64,000 nucleotides of DNA from Myxococcales bacterium. GTDB taxonomy: Bacteria > Myxococcota_A > Polyangia > Palsa-1104 > JAEUJZ01. Where the stretch lies: contig JAEUKB010000021.1 in the NCBI GenBank assembly GCA_016794365.1, positions 124,001-188,000 of the forward strand, written 5' to 3'. The notes beneath the pieces are model-generated. The model had not been told where the DNA came from and made no database searches. It saw only the letters and a list, made by a program, of their open reading frames with translations. Position 1 is the stretch's first letter. Every line of letters begins with the position of its first letter. Below are positions 11,283-54,947 of the stretch, piece after piece. The position numbers and the translations under genes were made by a program.

Positions 11283-12410
11283 TTAACGAAGCTTGTCGGG
11301 GGACAGGCTGGGGGCGTCGGCTCGGGTGGAGCGGATGGTGTTGCGGGGATGCCAGGTCAGCTCGACCTTGGAGTCATTGCCCGATAGGAGGAGCTGGGTG
11401 CCTTGATCGGGCAGCTCGACGCGACGGATGCGCTGACCGTGCTGCCAGGTGCCGTTGGTGCTGCACAGATCCATCGCATAGACGCGGCCTCGCTCGGCCA
11501 TGAGCAAAAGGTGCAGTCGCGAGATCTGACCGGAGAGCACCTGGCGCAGGCCGCGATCCATGCAGGTCTCGGAGCGACCGATGATGACGCCCGCGTAGAG
11601 ATCGGCTTCGCTTAGCTCGACGGAGACGGCCTTGGTCTGGCGACGCAAGGTGACACGGGCGCGACCGGCTGGGGCGGCGGGAATGGCGGCCCCGGACTGT
11701 AGATCTTCGACGCGCTGAGAGCGGGGCAGCAAGGTGATGTGGGTCCGTCGCTGCATCCGCAGGGAGTTCTGGGGCGGCTGCTCGGCTTCCACAAAGTCGT
11801 AGCTGGGTAGCTCGACCGCGTCAGCCAGCCTGCCGCGCTGGGACAGAAACTCGGGCAGGGGGACGCAGCCAATCGCGCAGTCGCCCAGGCCAATCAGCAG
11901 CGGACCGCTGACGCCAATCGACTGCCGGGGCTGGCCTTCAATCGTAAAGGGCTGGCTTGTGTGCAGGTCGAGCAGTCGCAGGGCAGGGGTCTTGTCGGCG
12001 AGCAGGGCGCAGCTGGCAAGCAGGTGGCGGTTGGTCACGCTCGGCAGCTTGGGCAGCACCAAGTCACAGTTTTCGTGCCAGCCCATGACTGCAAACACAG
12101 ACGACGACGCTTCCAAGTCAATCCAGCCGAGGTCGCGGCCATGGACCCAGAACAGGCGATAGCCGGTGCGGCAGGCGGCGGGCTGGTCGAGCAGCATCCG
12201 CGCGCCAAAGACGTAGGCCTCACGCAGGGAGTGGGGACTGGGACCGGGCTGGACGGCCCGCAGGTGTCCGGCGCTCTGTCCGACTGCGCTCTTGCTGGGT
12301 CCGGGGGCAATGCCGGAGACTTCCCCGGTGGCCTCTGCGGGCTCAGGCGGAACCAGCCGCAGCTGCGGTCGTCCGGGCCTTAAGGAGCCGCTTGGCTCAT
12401 CCGAGTCCAT
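11283..12410 (-). CDS. Double FHA-domain protein
   Basis: The start at the ATG complementary to 12408-12410 (MDSDEPSGSLRPG) gives 375 residues; the longer in-frame start overlaps the upstream gene and lacks support. A Pro-rich N-terminal 60 residues are followed by a divergent FHA-like domain (VMGWHENCDLVLP, then SVTNRHLLAS) and a linker. A canonical FHA domain comes next (VIIGRSETC, then ISRLHLLLM, then DLCSTNGTWQHG). FHA domains bind phosphothreonine, so the protein probably reads Ser/Thr kinase signals, which are abundant in Myxococcota; no kinase is in the window. It lies 73 bp after the SIR2-like/TPR gene and seven bases before the alarmone hydrolase gene. The second domain is secure; the first is degenerate but recognisable. 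Confidence 0.85.
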   Translation of the reverse strand: MDSDEPSGSLRPGRPQLRLVPPEPAEATGEVSGIAPGPSKSAVGQSAGHLRAVQPGPSPHSLREAYVFGARMLLDQPAACRTGYRLFWVHGRDLGWIDLEASSSVFAVMGWHENCDLVLPKLPSVTNRHLLASCALLADKTPALRLLDLHTSQPFTIEGQPRQSIGVSGPLLIGLGDCAIGCVPLPEFLSQRGRLADAVELPSYDFVEAEQPPQNSLRMQRRTHITLLPRSQRVEDLQSGAAIPAAPAGRARVTLRRQTKAVSVELSEADLYAGVIIGRSETCMDRGLRQVLSGQISRLHLLLMAERGRVYAMDLCSTNGTWQHGQRIRRVELPDQGTQLLLSGNDSKVELTWHPRNTIRSTRADAPSLSPDKLR

Positions 12411-12483
12411 GCTCTGGATTATAACCGCAATCCCCCGGGAAATGGGGGACGGGATGGGGCGGGGCAGAAGGAGGGAGGTGCGA

Positions 12484-15400
12484 CTACAGGCCGAGGAACT
12501 GGCGAACGGAGGCCAGCTCTTCACTCACCGCAAAGTGCAGCAGCTCTAGGAGCCTCTGCTTGGGCGAAAGCAGCGTCAGGCCGGGCGGATCGGTCGCGAG
12601 CAGCAGCGCCGCTGTCTCTAGATCGCCGCACAACAGCGCACCCACGCGCACGGTCGTCAGCTCCGACGCCGACAGCCAGGTGTTGGCCAGCTGGGTCGGC
12701 TTGACAGCAGAGTCGGTCAGGGTGCGACCCACGCGACAGAGCTGCTCTAGCTGCTGCGGGGACAGGGCACCCCGCAGGCTGCGGGCCAGCTCGAGCACCG
12801 GACCGGAGGCGGGCGGCGTGACCTGGCTTAGCTCTTGGTTGGTGAGGATGAGCGCGGCTTCGATGATCTGCGCCAGCTCTTGTTCATCGGACAGCACGGT
12901 GCGGAGCGCGCGCTCGGGACGCAAAAGGGCCGCCATCCGACCGACTTCGTACAGGGTTTCGCGCTCGGGACGGCTGGGATCGAGCAGCGGCGGGCCCAGC
13001 TCGGCGCAGACCGTCGCGGGCCCTTGGCCGTCGCGGGCGATCGAGATGAGGAAGGCTTGCTCCGCCAGCTCGCGGGCTTGCGGCCTGGGATACAGCTCGG
13101 GCAGCGGCGACTCGGTCATCTCAAAGGCGTAGCGCAGCGCTTTGAGATAGACCTGGGAGGCGCTTGGCTCGACGCGGCTATTGCGATCGAAGGGCTGCTC
13201 GGTGAAGGGGCGGGCGTGGCGCTTTTGCAGGCTGGGCCACAGCACGGCGAGCAGCGCTTGCAGGCGCGTATCCTCATCGGGGTGGCTGACCATCCGCCAC
13301 AGATCCTTGGTAAGCGGCCTGCGGGCGAGCGCAACCGGACGGCTGCGCAGCTCATCCACCAGCGCGGCATCATCGGGGGAGCCCTGGCGCAGCAAGGTCA
13401 GCGCATGGGCCACCTGGGCGGCTCGGTCGCGCTGGCCGGTCTTGCCGTAGAGATCGCGCAGCGCCTTGTAGGAGGCCAGCTCGCCCTTGCTGTGCTTGAG
13501 GATGTGGTGATGTTCGGCAATTGCCTTGTCGAGCTTGTCGTCCCCGGCGGTCGCGTAGATGGCTGCCATCTGGCGGTGACGATCCAGGTTGCCCGGCTCT
13601 AGCGTGAGCGAGACTTCGTACGCGCTCATGCCGGTCTTGAGATCGCCCAGCTCTTGAATGCAGACGCGCGCCACCTCGGTCCACAGCCGCAGCCGCTCGG
13701 CGCGCTGCTTGGGGGAGTCGCCTTGCTCGGGGCCCATGACCTTGATACGGCGCTGCATGGCCCGCAGCCGCTCTTTGGGGTCAGAGAGCTGCGCGGCCAG
13801 GGTCTCGGCAGACTCCAGGCTCTTGACGAGCGTGGGATCGTCGTCGAACGAGCTCCAGAGCAGGCGCAGGGCACGACGCGGCTCGTTCAAGTGATCGCGG
13901 GTAATGAAGCCAGCGGTCTGCTTGTAGCGCGCGCGGCGCTTTTCGTTGGTCTCGGCAGCGGCCAGCTCTTGCAGCAGGTTCGCGGCTTCTGCCCACAGTT
14001 TCTGCTCGGTGTAGACCGACAGCAGCTTGTGCTGGATGGTCACGGCCTGCGGGGACAGCGACAGCGCTTCCCGGTAGGAGGCGATCGCTTCTTGCGGCTT
14101 GGCGAGCGGGCCCGCGTACAGGTCGCCGATTTCGATGAGGACCGACAGGCGATCCTCTGCGGTGCCGGGCTCACCCGGATGCGCGAGCAGCGAGCGGAGC
14201 AGCGACTGCCGGACTTCCAGCTTCTCTTCGGCGGACAGCGAGTCCACGCGGCGGAGCTGAGAGAGCGCCAAGCGATGCAGCGGCAGAAGCTCACGCGCTT
14301 TTTGGAGCGCCAGCTTGGACGGCTCTTCATTGCCAAGCGCGAGCTCTGCCTGACCCTTGCTGGCCCACAGATCGGCCAGCTCGGCCTGACCGAGCGCTTC
14401 GTGGTGCTCGGACAGGAGGGTGTCGCTGATCGCGCGCGCATCGACAAACTGTCCCGTCTCAATGAGCAGCGGCAAAAGCCCGCGCAGGGCCCCGAGATCC
14501 TTGGGCTCTAGCTCCAGCGCGCGTCGGTAGGCACGGCGGGCTTTGTCGCGCAGACCGGCACCGAGAGACGCCTGCGCCAGCCGAGACAGCCGGATCACCT
14601 GCGTGCCGCGCTCTGCTTCCTTGCGGGTCAGCATTTCCAAAAGGGGCAGCGCGTCCTCGAAGCGTCCGTCTTGCCAGTACAGCTCGGACAGCAGCTGGGC
14701 GGCATCGTTGTGCTCTGGATCTTGGGCCAGCACATCGCGCAGCAGGTCGCCCGCTTTCTGTCTTTCTTCCGCGAGCAGGTGTTCCTTGGCGGACTGCACC
14801 ATCCAGCGACCCTTGTCGAGCCGGTTGGTGCTCTGCTCGGCGGCTTCCTTGAACAGCTTGGCCGCTCGCAGGTGATCGCCACGGCTGCGGTAGAGATCGG
14901 CGAGCGCGCTCTGCGTCTGGACGTGACCGGGCAGGATCTCCAGGGCGCGGACCAGGTGCTCTTCCGCTGCACTGGCGTCGGACAGCTTGGCAAGGCACAG
15001 CCGCGCCGCTTCGCCATAGAGCGTCACCTTGAGGTTCTTGTCGTCCGAAAGGTGCGCGCGCTTGACCAGATAGCGGACCGCTTCTTCGGGCTGCTCGCTC
15101 TGCTGATACAGCCGTCCGAGCGCTTCGATGGCACCTGTGTGCTCGGGCTCGCCATCGAGGATTTGCAGCCACGCAGCGATGGCCTTGGGCGCATGCTGCC
15201 GACGCAGCTGCTCGTCACCGGCTGGAAGCTCTAGCTCATGGACGCGGGCGAGGGCGGACAGCAGCTCACTGCGGCCCTTTTCGGCGTGATCAATGTGACG
15301 CTGATAGGTCGCGCACAGCTCGTCCCACTTTTTCTGCTGGCGATACAGCCGACACAGCGAGCGGTACGTCTCTTCCGACTTGGGATCGATGGTCAGGATC

Positions 15401-50897: not shown

Positions 50898-52220
50898 ATG
50901 TTCCGACAAAGGCGGCTGCTGTGGTTTTGGGTCGGTTTCGGTGCGCTTGTGGCCTCTTTGTGGTTCGCTCGTCCAGCGGATCGCGCTGCACTGCCACTGT
51001 CCGACGCAGAAGATCGCTATTTTTCTAACCTGCAAGCGACGCTGCGTCGCGTATCGGGCCTGCCGTGTGCGGCGATTGATCTCGACCGGCTCGATCACAA
51101 CCTCAAACAGGCGCAGTCCGCACTGTCGAGCGAGCAGCGTCTGCGGATTGTCGTCAAGTCACTGCCGTCGCTGGGACTTTTGCGCTACATCTTGCAAAAG
51201 ACCGGAACGCGCTCGCTGATGGTGTTTCATGCGCCCCAGGTTCCGCTGCTGCTGCGCGAGCTAAAAGACCTGGGTTCGATCGATGTTCTCCTCGGGAAAC
51301 CGGCACCTGCCGAAGCTGCGTACCAAGTGATCAGCGCCTATCCCGACGCTGCCCAGCAGGTTTCCTGGCTGATCGACGACGGAAATCGGCTCTCGGCGTA
51401 TCGCGAGGTTGCACGCAAGACCGGGCGAGTGCTCAGCGTCAGCATCGAGCTAGATGTCGGCCTTCATCGTGGCGGGATTCGTTCCGACGAAGAGCTACGC
51501 ACAATGATCTCTCAAATTGCGGCTGCCCCGTCAGAGCTTCGCTTTGCAGGCTTTATGGGCTACGACGGTCACGTTCCGCACGCACCGGGGCTGCCAAAGA
51601 AATCGGCGCTCCACACTGCGCTCGTCGAAGTTCAGACGCGCTATCAGCACTTTGTAGACGTGGCCAAGGCCGCTCAGCCGGACTGGTTTTCTGCTTCGTC
51701 GCGCAAGCTCGTTTTCAACAGCGGAGGCAGCAGGACGCTGCCGATGTATGCCGGACTTCCGACGGTGGTAAACGATCTTGCGATGGGCTCTGGCCTGCTG
51801 CGTCCGGCCAGCTTTGACGACGAAGCACTGGCTGCGTTTTTGCCTGCGCTGTGGCTCGCCGTGCCGGTGCTCAAGAAGCAAGCGGAACCGCCGCTGCCGT
51901 TTCTCGACGGAATGTGGGGACTTTTGCGGCTGTGGGATCGCAACCTAGCCGTCGGTTACTTCTTGTATGGCGGAACCTGGGACGCGCCGATTGTCTATCC
52001 GACGGGACTGCGCGCAGGCTGGTTTCACGACGGGCCGATTCGCAACCTGCTGCCCAATCAGCAGCTGTTGACCGGCTCAACGCGCGTCGTCGCTGAAGTC
52101 GGTAGCTTCGTGATCCTTCACCCGAGAGAAGCCGACAACTTTGCCGCGCTGTCAGACCTGTATGCGATACGAAATGGCCAGGTTGAAGCGCACTGGCAGC
52201 CCCTCTCGGTGCTCAACTGA
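50898..52220 (+). CDS. Membrane-anchored alanine racemase/D-threonine aldolase-like PLP protein
   Basis: This is a 440-residue protein starting at the ATG at 50898 (TTAGG upstream; 50883 is an alternative). An N-terminal hydrophobic helix (LLWFWVGFGALVASLWF) suggests a signal anchor or cleaved export signal. The remainder has the fold-type III PLP barrel start: AAIDLDRLDHNLKQA, then LRIVVKSLPSLGLLRYIL, where Lys87 is the expected PLP lysine. SIELDVGLHRGGI and FAGFMGYDGHVP follow, with AEVGSFVILHP near the C-terminus. Relatives include D-threonine aldolases and D-amino acid deaminases, which are cytoplasmic; export of such a protein is uncommon. The substrate is probably a D-amino acid, by inference from family. 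Confidence 0.75.
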   Translation: MFRQRRLLWFWVGFGALVASLWFARPADRAALPLSDAEDRYFSNLQATLRRVSGLPCAAIDLDRLDHNLKQAQSALSSEQRLRIVVKSLPSLGLLRYILQKTGTRSLMVFHAPQVPLLLRELKDLGSIDVLLGKPAPAEAAYQVISAYPDAAQQVSWLIDDGNRLSAYREVARKTGRVLSVSIELDVGLHRGGIRSDEELRTMISQIAAAPSELRFAGFMGYDGHVPHAPGLPKKSALHTALVEVQTRYQHFVDVAKAAQPDWFSASSRKLVFNSGGSRTLPMYAGLPTVVNDLAMGSGLLRPASFDDEALAAFLPALWLAVPVLKKQAEPPLPFLDGMWGLLRLWDRNLAVGYFLYGGTWDAPIVYPTGLRAGWFHDGPIRNLLPNQQLLTGSTRVVAEVGSFVILHPREADNFAALSDLYAIRNGQVEAHWQPLSVLN

Positions 52221-52361
52221 CCCGTTCCAAGCTGAGCGGTTGACCAACTGAAAGCAAAGCGCGAGGCCCAGCCGCGAAGAGGAACCAGCGAGCAAAGCGA
52301 TGAGAATCCCCACAAACCTGCGAAAGCTGCAAAAACTACAATTAGTAACCAAGATTCTGCA

Positions 52362-52388
52362 AAAATCTAACCCTACCTGTAGGATTTT
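52362..52388. terminator. Weak hairpin in the 258-bp gap before the apyrase gene
   Basis: The gap 52221-52478 carries no gene that I can support. AAAATC (52362-52367) and GATTTT (52383-52388) form a short A/T-closed stem in an AT-rich patch. It could be a weak terminator for the PLP gene or part of the apyrase promoter. Confidence 0.3.
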
Positions 52389-52478
52389 GGGGTACTTCTT
52401 AGCTCGTCTGTAGCCGCGCTCGCGGCTGCCTGCCAGCCTCTGCGTTGTTTGGCTCAATCCCTGCTTTCAGGAGGCGAC

Positions 52479-53744
52479 ATGCGTCCGCGTCCACTCCGCC
52501 TATTTTCAACGGTTCCCATCGTCTGTTTGCTGACGCTGCTTGGATTTCCGGAGGATGGCCGCTTGGGCCAGCCCAGTCGTGCGTCGGATCGTACCGAGTC
52601 TGTTCACTTGATCCTTGATCTCGGCTCGTCGGGAACTCGCTTTTGTATGTATCCAGTGTCCGTCGAACGAACCGATCAGTCATCCGATCGCAAGCGCTGT
52701 CGTGTCAGCTCTCCCAATCCGGTCTGCGTCAAGATGAGCGGCGGAATTGCTGCGCTGGTCCGTGGTCACTCTGCCGAAGAGGTTCCGTCGATGGTGCTTC
52801 CCAAGCTGCGGCAAGCGTGGGATGCGCTCGGCGACGCGCACAAGAAGGGCAATCCGCAGCTTCGTGAGCGAATCCAAGGTGTGGTGGCGCTTGGAACCGG
52901 CGGATTTCGCAACCCGAGCACCAATCTCCCCGACGAGCGACGCGAGTTTCAGGCGGTCTGGGCCGAGATTGCGCGGTTCTTCAAAGACGAAGTCAAGCAG
53001 CAGCATGTGGTGGCGCGGACGATCAGCGGACTTGATGAAGCGCGGCTCGCGTGGCTCGGGGTTTCGCAGCAAGTTCCCGCGTCGGTGGGCGACAGCTTTG
53101 CGATCATCGAAGTGGGCGGTGCATCGATCCAGTTTGCGACGAGCGGACGCAGCCTCGATTATCAAGATCTCTATGCCGCCAGTGAGTATCGCGGTCAGGA
53201 CTACGTGTTTCACAAGTTCGCACCGCCAAACGGTCCGACGGCGCTGGGCTTCGATGCTTGCTTTTCTCCCGAGGATCGCTCGCGTCAAGACGGCCCGGCT
53301 TGTATGGCGTTTTTGCGCGCCAATGTGTTTTCCGGCAGCTCGATCAACCAGCTTGCCTATCACTTCCCGCCGCGCAGGCTGTACGGACTGGGCGCTCCGT
53401 GGCTGGGTATTTTTTCGGACTATCCGTCGGCACCACCGTGGCCGCCGAAGCTGGATACGTCGTACAGTCCGAAGCTGTCGCCGGGAAACCTGGCGCGACT
53501 GGCTGAAAAGGTCTGCAAGCTCAGCGACGAAGAAATCGGTTCATTTGCGCCGAATGCGTTCGATCTTCGTAAAAATTCAGCGACGGGGGAAAGCTCTGGC
53601 AAGGCTTGCTTCACGCTGTCGTATCACGCCGGATTTTTGGAATCGGTGGCAATGATCTCGCAAGACGCTGCGCTGCTTCCCGGTGGTGACGATCAATGGG
53701 CGCGTGGCGCAGCAGTGACGCACGAGTTCTTTCCCGATTGCTAG
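52479..53744 (+). CDS. GDA1/CD39-type nucleoside triphosphate diphosphohydrolase (apyrase)
   Basis: The ATG at 52479 is preceded by AGGAGG, giving 421 residues with an N-terminal signal or anchor (RLFSTVPIVCLLTLLGF). The apyrase conserved regions of eukaryotic ecto-NTPDases can be read in order. ACR1 is LDLGSSGTR (46-54), ACR2 is ALGTGGFRN (137-145), ACR3 is GLDEARLAW (184-192) with Glu187 as the catalytic base, and ACR4 is IIEVGGASIQFAT (209-221). A further FHKFAPPNGPTALG and a C-terminal Cys pair are seen. It would hydrolyse NTPs or NDPs outside the cytoplasm. Such proteins are rare in bacteria; the best known is in Legionella. It is followed after 24 bp by the dipeptide epimerase gene. Confidence 0.88.
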   Translation: MRPRPLRLFSTVPIVCLLTLLGFPEDGRLGQPSRASDRTESVHLILDLGSSGTRFCMYPVSVERTDQSSDRKRCRVSSPNPVCVKMSGGIAALVRGHSAEEVPSMVLPKLRQAWDALGDAHKKGNPQLRERIQGVVALGTGGFRNPSTNLPDERREFQAVWAEIARFFKDEVKQQHVVARTISGLDEARLAWLGVSQQVPASVGDSFAIIEVGGASIQFATSGRSLDYQDLYAASEYRGQDYVFHKFAPPNGPTALGFDACFSPEDRSRQDGPACMAFLRANVFSGSSINQLAYHFPPRRLYGLGAPWLGIFSDYPSAPPWPPKLDTSYSPKLSPGNLARLAEKVCKLSDEEIGSFAPNAFDLRKNSATGESSGKACFTLSYHAGFLESVAMISQDAALLPGGDDQWARGAAVTHEFFPDC

Positions 53745-53768
53745 TCGCGTGGTTCCATAGACAGTCAG

Positions 53769-54869
53769 ATGCGAAGTTGGCCGATTGACCGTGTGCAGGT
53801 TCGCCCGCTGGGCTCGACGCTGCACATGCCGTTTCATATCTCGCAAGGCTCGGTGGAGACGCTGGAAAACGTCCTGATCGTGCTGCACGACGCAGAAGGT
53901 CGCGTGGCCTTCGGGGAAGCTGCGCCGTTTCCAGTGCTGACCGGCGATACGCAGCAGACGGTGCTGCCCGCGTGTGAGCAGCTGCTGAGCGCGCTGATTG
54001 GACTGAGTCCAGCGGCAGCGCTGACGCACCTTCACGACGAGCTGTGGCTTGACTTTGAGAAGACTCCGACGGCGCGGGCAGGCATCGAGCTGGCGCTGTG
54101 GGATCTGTACGCGCGGCAGCTAGGTGTATCGCTGTCGTCGCTGTGGGGACGCGCTGCGCTGGGGAAAGCCGAGACAGACATCACGCTGCCTCGACTTTGT
54201 GCCGACGAGGTTGCGCCGTTTTACCGTCACTTTGCGAGCCATCGGTTTCCGTTTATCAAGGTCAAGGTGGGCGGCGGTGCACTGTCGGAAGATCTCGATC
54301 GCGTGATGGCGCTGGTTCGCTGCGTGGGTCCGTCGCTGCGACTGAGTCTCGACGGAAATCAGGGTCTTAGCGAGCAGAGCGCGGTGACGCTGTGCGACGA
54401 GCTGGCCAAGTGGAACGTGACGCCACTGTTTTTCGAGCAGCCGCTTCCGCACGATGATCTCGTTGGGATGACGCGGCTCAGCCAGCGTCTTGCGATTCCG
54501 ATCTGTGCCGACGAGTCGGTCAAGACCATCTTCGACGCGATGACGGTGATGGATCGACGAGCAGCGCGGATGGTGAACCTGAAGTTTATGAAGTCCGGCG
54601 TGCGTGAGTCGCTGCTGATTGCAGAGCTGGCTCGTCGGACGCAGACGGAGCTGATGATCGGCGGAATGGTCGAAAGCGAGATCGCGATGACCGCGTCGCT
54701 GCATGCGGTGTGTGGAACCGGGCTGATCGCGGTGTGTGACCTGGATACGCCATTTTTTTTGCACGAGCGCTTTACCGTCGAAAGTCCGTATCATCGACAG
54801 TCGGCACAGCTTGAGCTACCGTCTGGACCCGGCTTGGGACTTGTGCTGCGCGACGAGCTGCTTGGCTAG
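53769..54869 (+). CDS. Dipeptide epimerase (L-Ala-D/L-Glu epimerase-like), enolase superfamily
   Basis: This 366-residue protein has an N-terminal capping domain (residues 1-130, FGEAAPFPVLTGD) and the muconate-lactonizing barrel. Catalytic lysines are Lys164 and Lys166 in FIKVKVGGG on one side and Lys272 in VNLKFMKSG on the other. Metal ligands are Asp195 (SLDGNQG), Glu223 (FFEQPLP) and Asp248 (ICADES). CDLDTPFF (Asp324, Asp326) is the DxD signature that holds the dipeptide amino terminus in dipeptide epimerases. It probably epimerises Ala-Glu or related dipeptides from peptidoglycan recycling. It sits between the apyrase and rarA genes. Dipeptide specificity is inferred. Confidence 0.9.
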   Translation: MRSWPIDRVQVRPLGSTLHMPFHISQGSVETLENVLIVLHDAEGRVAFGEAAPFPVLTGDTQQTVLPACEQLLSALIGLSPAAALTHLHDELWLDFEKTPTARAGIELALWDLYARQLGVSLSSLWGRAALGKAETDITLPRLCADEVAPFYRHFASHRFPFIKVKVGGGALSEDLDRVMALVRCVGPSLRLSLDGNQGLSEQSAVTLCDELAKWNVTPLFFEQPLPHDDLVGMTRLSQRLAIPICADESVKTIFDAMTVMDRRAARMVNLKFMKSGVRESLLIAELARRTQTELMIGGMVESEIAMTASLHAVCGTGLIAVCDLDTPFFLHERFTVESPYHRQSAQLELPSGPGLGLVLRDELLG

Positions 54870-54947
54870 CTGGGTCTGATCGTGTGACGACGACAGCGCG
54901 CTGTGCTGGCTGTAGATCCTCGCATCGGTTTGTACTAGCGTCGGCGC

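Follow-up and report, generated by a model that had tools for sequence, protein, structure and literature searches.

An apyrase-like protein of a Myxococcales bacterium represents a small family of its own beside GDA1/CD39 and Ppx/GppA proteins

The apyrase-like gene and its surroundings

The window (the whole stretch of 64,000 nucleotides analysed here, from the genome of a Myxococcales bacterium) carries on its forward strand a reading frame that is open throughout, from the ATG at 52479 to the TAG ending at 53744, and that encodes a protein of 421 amino acids, P0001 (Table 1). The start region of the gene is kept in two congeners, and comparison of P0001 with its two orthologues gave dN values of 0.064 and 0.090 and dS values of 0.63 and 1.28, ratios which show purifying selection on the protein. 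The reading frame is real. A second copy, with 42–43% identity to P0001, is present in the window's genome and in both congeners. Directly after the second copy in L008 (positions 407-1474) lies the gene of a 355-aa lipoprotein-like protein with no Pfam match at an E-value of 0.01, and a similar lipoprotein-like frame follows the second copy in L006 and L007.

Table 1 Features of the P0001 gene and its flanks, with positions in the window
Feature	Position	Strand	Evidence
Candidate regulator site, near-palindrome CCTAC-CT-GTAGG (CCTACCTGTAGG)	52372..52383	.	Kept in the window and in two congeners; single occurrence of CCCTACNTGTAGG in the genome
Hairpin GCCGCG-CT-CGCGGC, upstream of the P0001 gene	52413-52426		Kept in the window and in two congeners; five pairs in L012
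GGAGG ribosome-binding site, 4 nt 5' of the ATG	52470..52474	+	Conserved in L011 and L012
CDS of the apyrase-like protein P0001	52479..53744	+	Open frame; orthologues at 89 and 86% identity; dN/dS 0.10 and 0.07
N-terminal export signal or anchor (predicted), residues 1-23: RPRPLR followed by a hydrophobic segment, lipobox absent	52479..52547	+	Sequence reading; pattern scan; pLDDT <50 for residues 1-4 and 6-35
ACR1-like D47-x-GSSGT (D47-L-G-S-S-G-T), predicted metal and phosphate loop	52617..52637	+	D47, G49, S50, S51, G52 and T53 invariant in 9/9
ACR2-like GTGGFR, residues 139-144	52893..52910	+	[AG]T[AG]GxR: 9/9 family, 7/7 NTPDases, 1/19 Ppx/GppA
ACR3-like ISGLDEARLAW, predicted catalytic base Glu187	53022..53054	+	HMMER alignment to Legionella NTPDase1; E187 invariant in 9/9
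ACR4-like EVGGASIQ (211-218), Glu211 for the metal aspartate	53109..53132	+	Glu in 8/9 members, Asp in L014
C377-F-x-x-x-Y382, NTPDase-type C-terminal motif	53607..53624	+	C[FY]xxx[YWF]: 9/9 family, 7/7 NTPDases, 0/19 Ppx/GppA
ACR5-like W407-A-R-G-A	53697..53711	+	WxxG[AY]: 9/9 family, 7/7 NTPDases, 0/19 Ppx/GppA
Enolase-superfamily MR_MLE gene, 24 nt past the P0001 stop	53769..54869	+	Next gene in all three congeners

The upstream neighbour of the P0001 gene is an alanine-racemase-like gene, for which L012 has no room directly upstream. A search for sigma-70-like promoters in 52150-54900 found none. The downstream MR_MLE gene finds its best NCBIfam model in L-Ala-D/L-Glu epimerase (170.8 bits, cut-off 500), and its DLDTPFF segment resembles the DxD of dipeptide epimerases. 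This gene was not seen beside the relatives in L058 to L061 (the L059 contig stops immediately upstream of the relative's own gene); the neighbours in L058, L060 and L061 are an Exo_endo_phos protein, an MFS transporter and a lipoprotein-like protein without a Pfam match. A conserved operon was rejected, as the MR_MLE gene adjoins in the three congeners only and neighbours differ outside the genus. The next same-strand gene in G146 encodes an Exo_endo_phos protein, a single case that hints at a setting of nucleic-acid or phosphate scavenging. Elsewhere in L060 (G003), positions 11568-14003 hold two consecutive same-strand DnaK-like frames, GIDLGTTHTVAAY and GIDLGTTNSALAY.

Distribution

The family comprises nine full-length members, namely two paralogues in each of the three congeners and those of three other genomes of the class. 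A scan of 317 genomes of the class gave matches in seven, belonging to 4 of 151 genera, of which six contain intact copies; the seventh, G211 (L057, L015), contains a fragment that covers the ACR3-ACR4 stretch in a 155-aa frame and is either a remnant or the product of an assembly break. The family is absent from two genomes of the window's taxonomic family, G004 and G005, one of them 96% and the other only 60% complete. Across the phylum, 5 of 377 genomes gave strong matches and 42 weak matches only (E 1.6e-6 to 9.2e-4, profile positions 129-255); a Ppx/GppA-type frame was present at 14 of the 15 weak-match loci inspected, and L025, the best weak match, had none in the frames seen. A scan of genome contigs with P0001 alone, which reaches close relatives only, returned L011 and L012 (the same as L002 and L003, and counted once). 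No relatives came from viral contigs, searched with P0001, the family alignment and an alignment of two NTPDase sequences, from plasmids, searched with P0001 and a GDA1/CD39 query, or from phages, searched with L014. In the parts of the literature available, matches for apyrase in myxobacteria concern other subjects.

Eukaryote-like NTPDases do occur in the same phylum. True GDA1/CD39 proteins are represented by L019, L020, L050, L051 and L055, and L019 matches CD39 (3zx3, which we take to be the rat protein) with an E-value of 1.2e-42. Such PF01150 proteins are rare, with matches in 2 of the 282 genomes searched across the phylum and in 3/29 and 2/5 genomes of the two families that hold them, and the window's own genome had no PF01150 match in the search in which those 2 of 282 genomes did. 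This genome does contain four 5_nucleotid_C matches and two ordinary Ppx-GppA matches, so that P0001 is not its sole candidate for a Ppx/GppA role.

Motifs, active-site residues and export

The original prediction had placed apyrase conserved regions (ACR) 1–4, including the catalytic Glu of ACR3, in this protein. All four were located where claimed and Glu187 is intact, but the metal aspartate of ACR4 is replaced by a glutamate. An ACR5-like motif, missing from the earlier motif list, is also present (we take the WxxG motif to be ACR5). The counts in Table 1 rest on patterns drawn up after the family and NTPDase sequences had been seen, and on a comparison set of seven NTPDases (six bacterial proteins, including the degenerate L052, and CD39 of 3zx3) and 19 Ppx/GppA sequences cut to 305 residues. 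These 19 are the loci, out of 23, that pass the ACR1, ACR3 and ACR4 patterns (L009, L010, L039 and L043 were dropped), and Ppx/GppA counts for these three motifs would be true by construction, whereas those for ACR2, ACR5 and the Cys motif are not. The ACR1 pattern was found in five of the seven NTPDases, and the ACR4 of L020 is unusual (DLGSVATS). L052 (G141:C26:5710-6336) is GDA1/CD39-like; its ACR1 has the sequence IEGARGETR, and it fits neither the ACR3 nor the ACR4 pattern. Judged by these motifs, it is apparently a degenerate, possibly non-catalytic NTPDase.

Within the family, ACR2 reads GTGG[FY]R, the C-terminal Cys motif C[FY]xxx[YF] and the ACR5-like motif WxRGA in all nine members. 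The features that characterise GDA1/CD39 proteins in ACR1 (DxGSSxT), ACR2 (TxGxR), ACR3 (Glu) and WxxG (Trp) are likewise found in 9/9, whereas P0001 lacks the ACR4 DxGG with its metal-facing Asp. The metal-facing aspartates of NTPDases are treated in PMC12489842, section 7 of which describes the ACR4 DxG aspartate as facing the metal in every productive NTPDase complex. The one family member with Asp at this position, L014, has a Ppx-like ACR4, DIGGSTTE. Compared with GDA1/CD39 NTPDases, the fixed cysteines near ACR1 (C56, C74 and C83), the C-terminal C421 and a conserved proline-rich segment (P316...P320-W321..K324) are specific to the family.

The export signal proposed to precede these motifs corresponds to a basic N-terminus followed by a hydrophobic stretch (residues 1–23), but neither a lipobox nor a clear cleavage site was seen in the N-terminus of P0001 by sequence reading and pattern scan. 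A lipobox pattern was detected in three of the nine members (L007, L013 and L014), and weaker lipobox-like sites were seen by eye in L004, L006 and L008; neither approach revealed such a site in P0001 or its two orthologues. Eight cysteines are fixed in all nine members, as would be expected of an exported protein. On these sequence features, P0001 is probably exported from the cytoplasm.

Sequence comparisons and phylogeny

P0001 matched no Pfam or NCBIfam model at its cut-off, and a PHROGs search was without a match. It scored 10.7 bits to GDA1_CD39 (PF01150, cut-off 24.9) and 13.4 bits to Ppx-GppA (PF02541, cut-off 27), so that membership of either by Pfam score was rejected, and its best NCBIfam match was an exopolyphosphatase model (20.3 bits of 307). 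The other eight members scored 11.6–17.0 bits to PF01150, all below the cut-off, and L014 was the only one of the nine to pass the Ppx-GppA cut-off (31.2 bits over 59 residues). This weak Ppx match of the family is not telling, because L019, a genuine GDA1/CD39 protein with 247.2 bits to PF01150, nonetheless makes a similar match to Ppx-GppA (31.4 bits).

The best PDB sequence match of P0001 was Legionella NTPDase1 (phmmer E 0.0012, best stretch residues 159–220), and the nine-member profile matched Legionella NTPDase1, GppA and CD39 of 3zx3 with E-values of 3.9e-7, 4.9e-5 and 1.2e-4, respectively. When full-length profiles were compared with hhalign, NTPDases reached a probability of 97.2% and Ppx/GppA one of 98.0%; the corresponding values for smaller sets were 94.3% and 97.0%. 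The scores of family members to the two profiles overlap. For the N-terminal half, Ppx/GppA had a slight edge (98.5 versus 97.8 for NTPDases), and the strongest local match of the family, around ACR3-ACR4, is Ppx-like. The C-terminal half aligns weakly but nearly end to end with that of NTPDases (probability 13.0, E 0.0022), compared with a probability of 7.7 (E 0.0045) to Ppx/GppA and of 0.3 between the C-terminal halves of NTPDases and Ppx/GppA. In this weak alignment (probability 13.0) four Cys, a Trp and a Gly are in register, with C261, C275, C346 and C377 aligned to Cys of L019. Homology of the family to the group formed by NTPDases and Ppx/GppA is clear, and sequence alone picks neither.

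An unrooted tree was built from the family (nine sequences), the seven NTPDases named above (CD39 of 3zx3 and six from bacteria) and 19 Ppx/GppA proteins. Each set fell on one side of a branch, with support values of 99/99 for the family, 100/99 for NTPDases and 100/99 for Ppx/GppA; in the same order, the stems measured 2.22, 1.98 and 2.07 changes per site. The family thus forms a clade outside both other sets and is about equally distant from true NTPDases and Ppx/GppA, in a three-way unrooted topology that gives no sister group. Placement of P0001 inside Ppx/GppA, the result named beforehand as speaking against an apyrase, was rejected, as the 19 Ppx/GppA proteins separate from it. CD39 was placed among the bacterial GDA1/CD39 proteins, and the term 'eukaryote-type' therefore fits the true GDA1/CD39 proteins of the phylum better. 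Of the description as a eukaryote-type ecto-apyrase, the apyrase-like fold (see below) and the catalytic motifs stand, but the protein scores below the GDA1/CD39 cut-off, sits in its own clade and has Glu for the ACR4 Asp. P0001 is an apyrase-like member of a small family of its own, not a plain GDA1/CD39 protein.

Predicted fold

AlphaFold2 models of P0001 (pLDDT 81.7, pTM 0.82) and of L014, the most divergent member (pLDDT 81.4, pTM 0.80), were built from the nine family sequences only. The training set of AlphaFold consists of solved structures, NTPDases and Ppx/GppA among them, and the models are therefore not fully independent of either group. In structure comparison, the P0001 model best matched Legionella NTPDase1 (Z 27.9, 319 residues, 3.0 Å), followed by plant NTPDase (27.3), CD39 (25.8) and NTPDase2 (25.3), with NTPDases filling ranks 1–30, whereas the best Ppx/GppA reached Z 22.1 (4.0 Å over 303 residues; 3.5 Å over 290). 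The large NTPDases of Toxoplasma are an exception, matching the model worse than Ppx/GppA (best Z 20.3). The L014 model gave a similar picture, with Z 28.8 to an NTPDase (315 residues aligned, 2.9 Å) and 23.0 to Ppx/GppA. With Foldseek, the P0001 model had a best E-value of 3.3e-14 over 422 columns including gaps (TM-score by query 0.57); rows 1–28 were NTPDases and the first Ppx/GppA ranked 29 (E 2.5e-12, TM-score by query 0.50). As modelled, P0001 and L014 have the NTPDase fold over both lobes.

Proposed function and alternative explanations

With GDA1/CD39 NTPDases (PF01150; Legionella pneumophila NTPDase1, 4brm and 3aap; CD39, 3zx3), P0001 and its family share the two-lobe fold, ACR1, ACR2, the ACR3 Glu, the ACR5 Trp, the C-terminal Cys motif and predicted export, and they differ in Pfam score, the ACR4 Glu and their separate clade. 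With Ppx/GppA (PF02541; exopolyphosphatases and pppGpp phosphatases) they share the superfamily fold and an ACR3, DEARLAW, that resembles the Ppx EEARL; the 19 Ppx/GppA sequences have 0–6 cysteines, and the Ppx/GppA fold is less similar than that of NTPDases. We consider it fairly probable that P0001 is an exported, metal-dependent phosphohydrolase of the ASKHA fold, from a third family between GDA1/CD39 and Ppx/GppA, and that it works like an apyrase.

Established NTPDase enzymology is the basis on which the catalytic base and phosphate release are assigned here. By this analogy, the two RNase-H-like lobes would close on a metal-bound phosphate chain, with the ACR1 and ACR4 loops holding the phosphates and the metal, and with Asp47 and Glu211 facing the metal. 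Glu187, the putative catalytic base, would activate water; NTPs and/or NDPs outside the cytoplasm would lose their terminal phosphate. Catalysis, metal use through Glu211, export and a nucleotide substrate are what we infer for this protein. A likely use would be the scavenging of external nucleotides for their phosphate and nucleosides, and enzymes with 5'-nucleotidase C-terminal domains, encoded in the same genome, could take AMP further.

The Ppx-like local match around ACR3-ACR4 could also reflect an extracytoplasmic Ppx/GppA-type phosphatase (an exported polyphosphatase or (p)ppGpp phosphatase) with a Ppx-like ACR3 and an NTPDase-like outer lobe, to which the DIGGSTTE of L014 and its passing of the Ppx-GppA cut-off would conform. 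We regard this as unlikely, given that a true GDA1/CD39 protein makes the same local match, that both models are nearer to most NTPDases in fold, and that Ppx/GppA proteins form a separate clade in which WxxG[AY] and C[FY]xxx[YWF] are found in 0/19. The Glu at the ACR4 metal position in eight of nine members, together with the existence in the phylum of a degenerate NTPDase-like protein that fits none of the ACR1, ACR3 and ACR4 patterns (L052), is consistent with a slow enzyme or a protein for binding or sensing, in which the change from Asp to Glu cost fast metal-dependent hydrolysis and binding of a phosphate ligand was kept. Retention of the ACR1 loop, ACR2, the ACR3 Glu and ACR5 in 9/9 members argues against such a loss, as does the fact that glutamate can still bind metal, and we judge it distinctly improbable. 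Recent acquisition of a eukaryotic NTPDase gene whose product targets the purinergic signals of other organisms, for which the apyrase-like motifs and the precedent of a bacterial NTPDase in Legionella might speak, is very unlikely in view of the family stem of 2.2 changes per site from the CD39-containing group, the restriction of the significant phmmer stretch to Legionella NTPDase1 to residues 159–220 and the G+C content of the gene (0.60 versus 0.62 for the window).

The reading as an exported, apyrase-like phosphohydrolase might be extended, though we think this less likely than not, to a third family known so far from only a few Myxococcales-type genomes. Its proteins would be exported and disulfide-bonded, with a Glu-for-Asp metal site and a Ppx-like ACR3 on an NTPDase-like frame; their substrate would be something besides plain ATP/ADP, such as external polyphosphate or an alarmone, and they would preserve an intermediate stage between two enzyme families. 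To our knowledge, most NTPDases described come from eukaryotes and only a few from bacteria, and their relation to bacterial Ppx/GppA is not settled. Since no Pfam or NCBIfam model reached its cut-off on P0001 and PHROGs gave no match, annotation will probably leave genes of this kind without an informative name. A small family, probably exported, that appears to combine the NTPDase fold and ACR5 with a Ppx/GppA-like ACR3 and an altered metal ligand would offer a testable link between the two enzyme groups.
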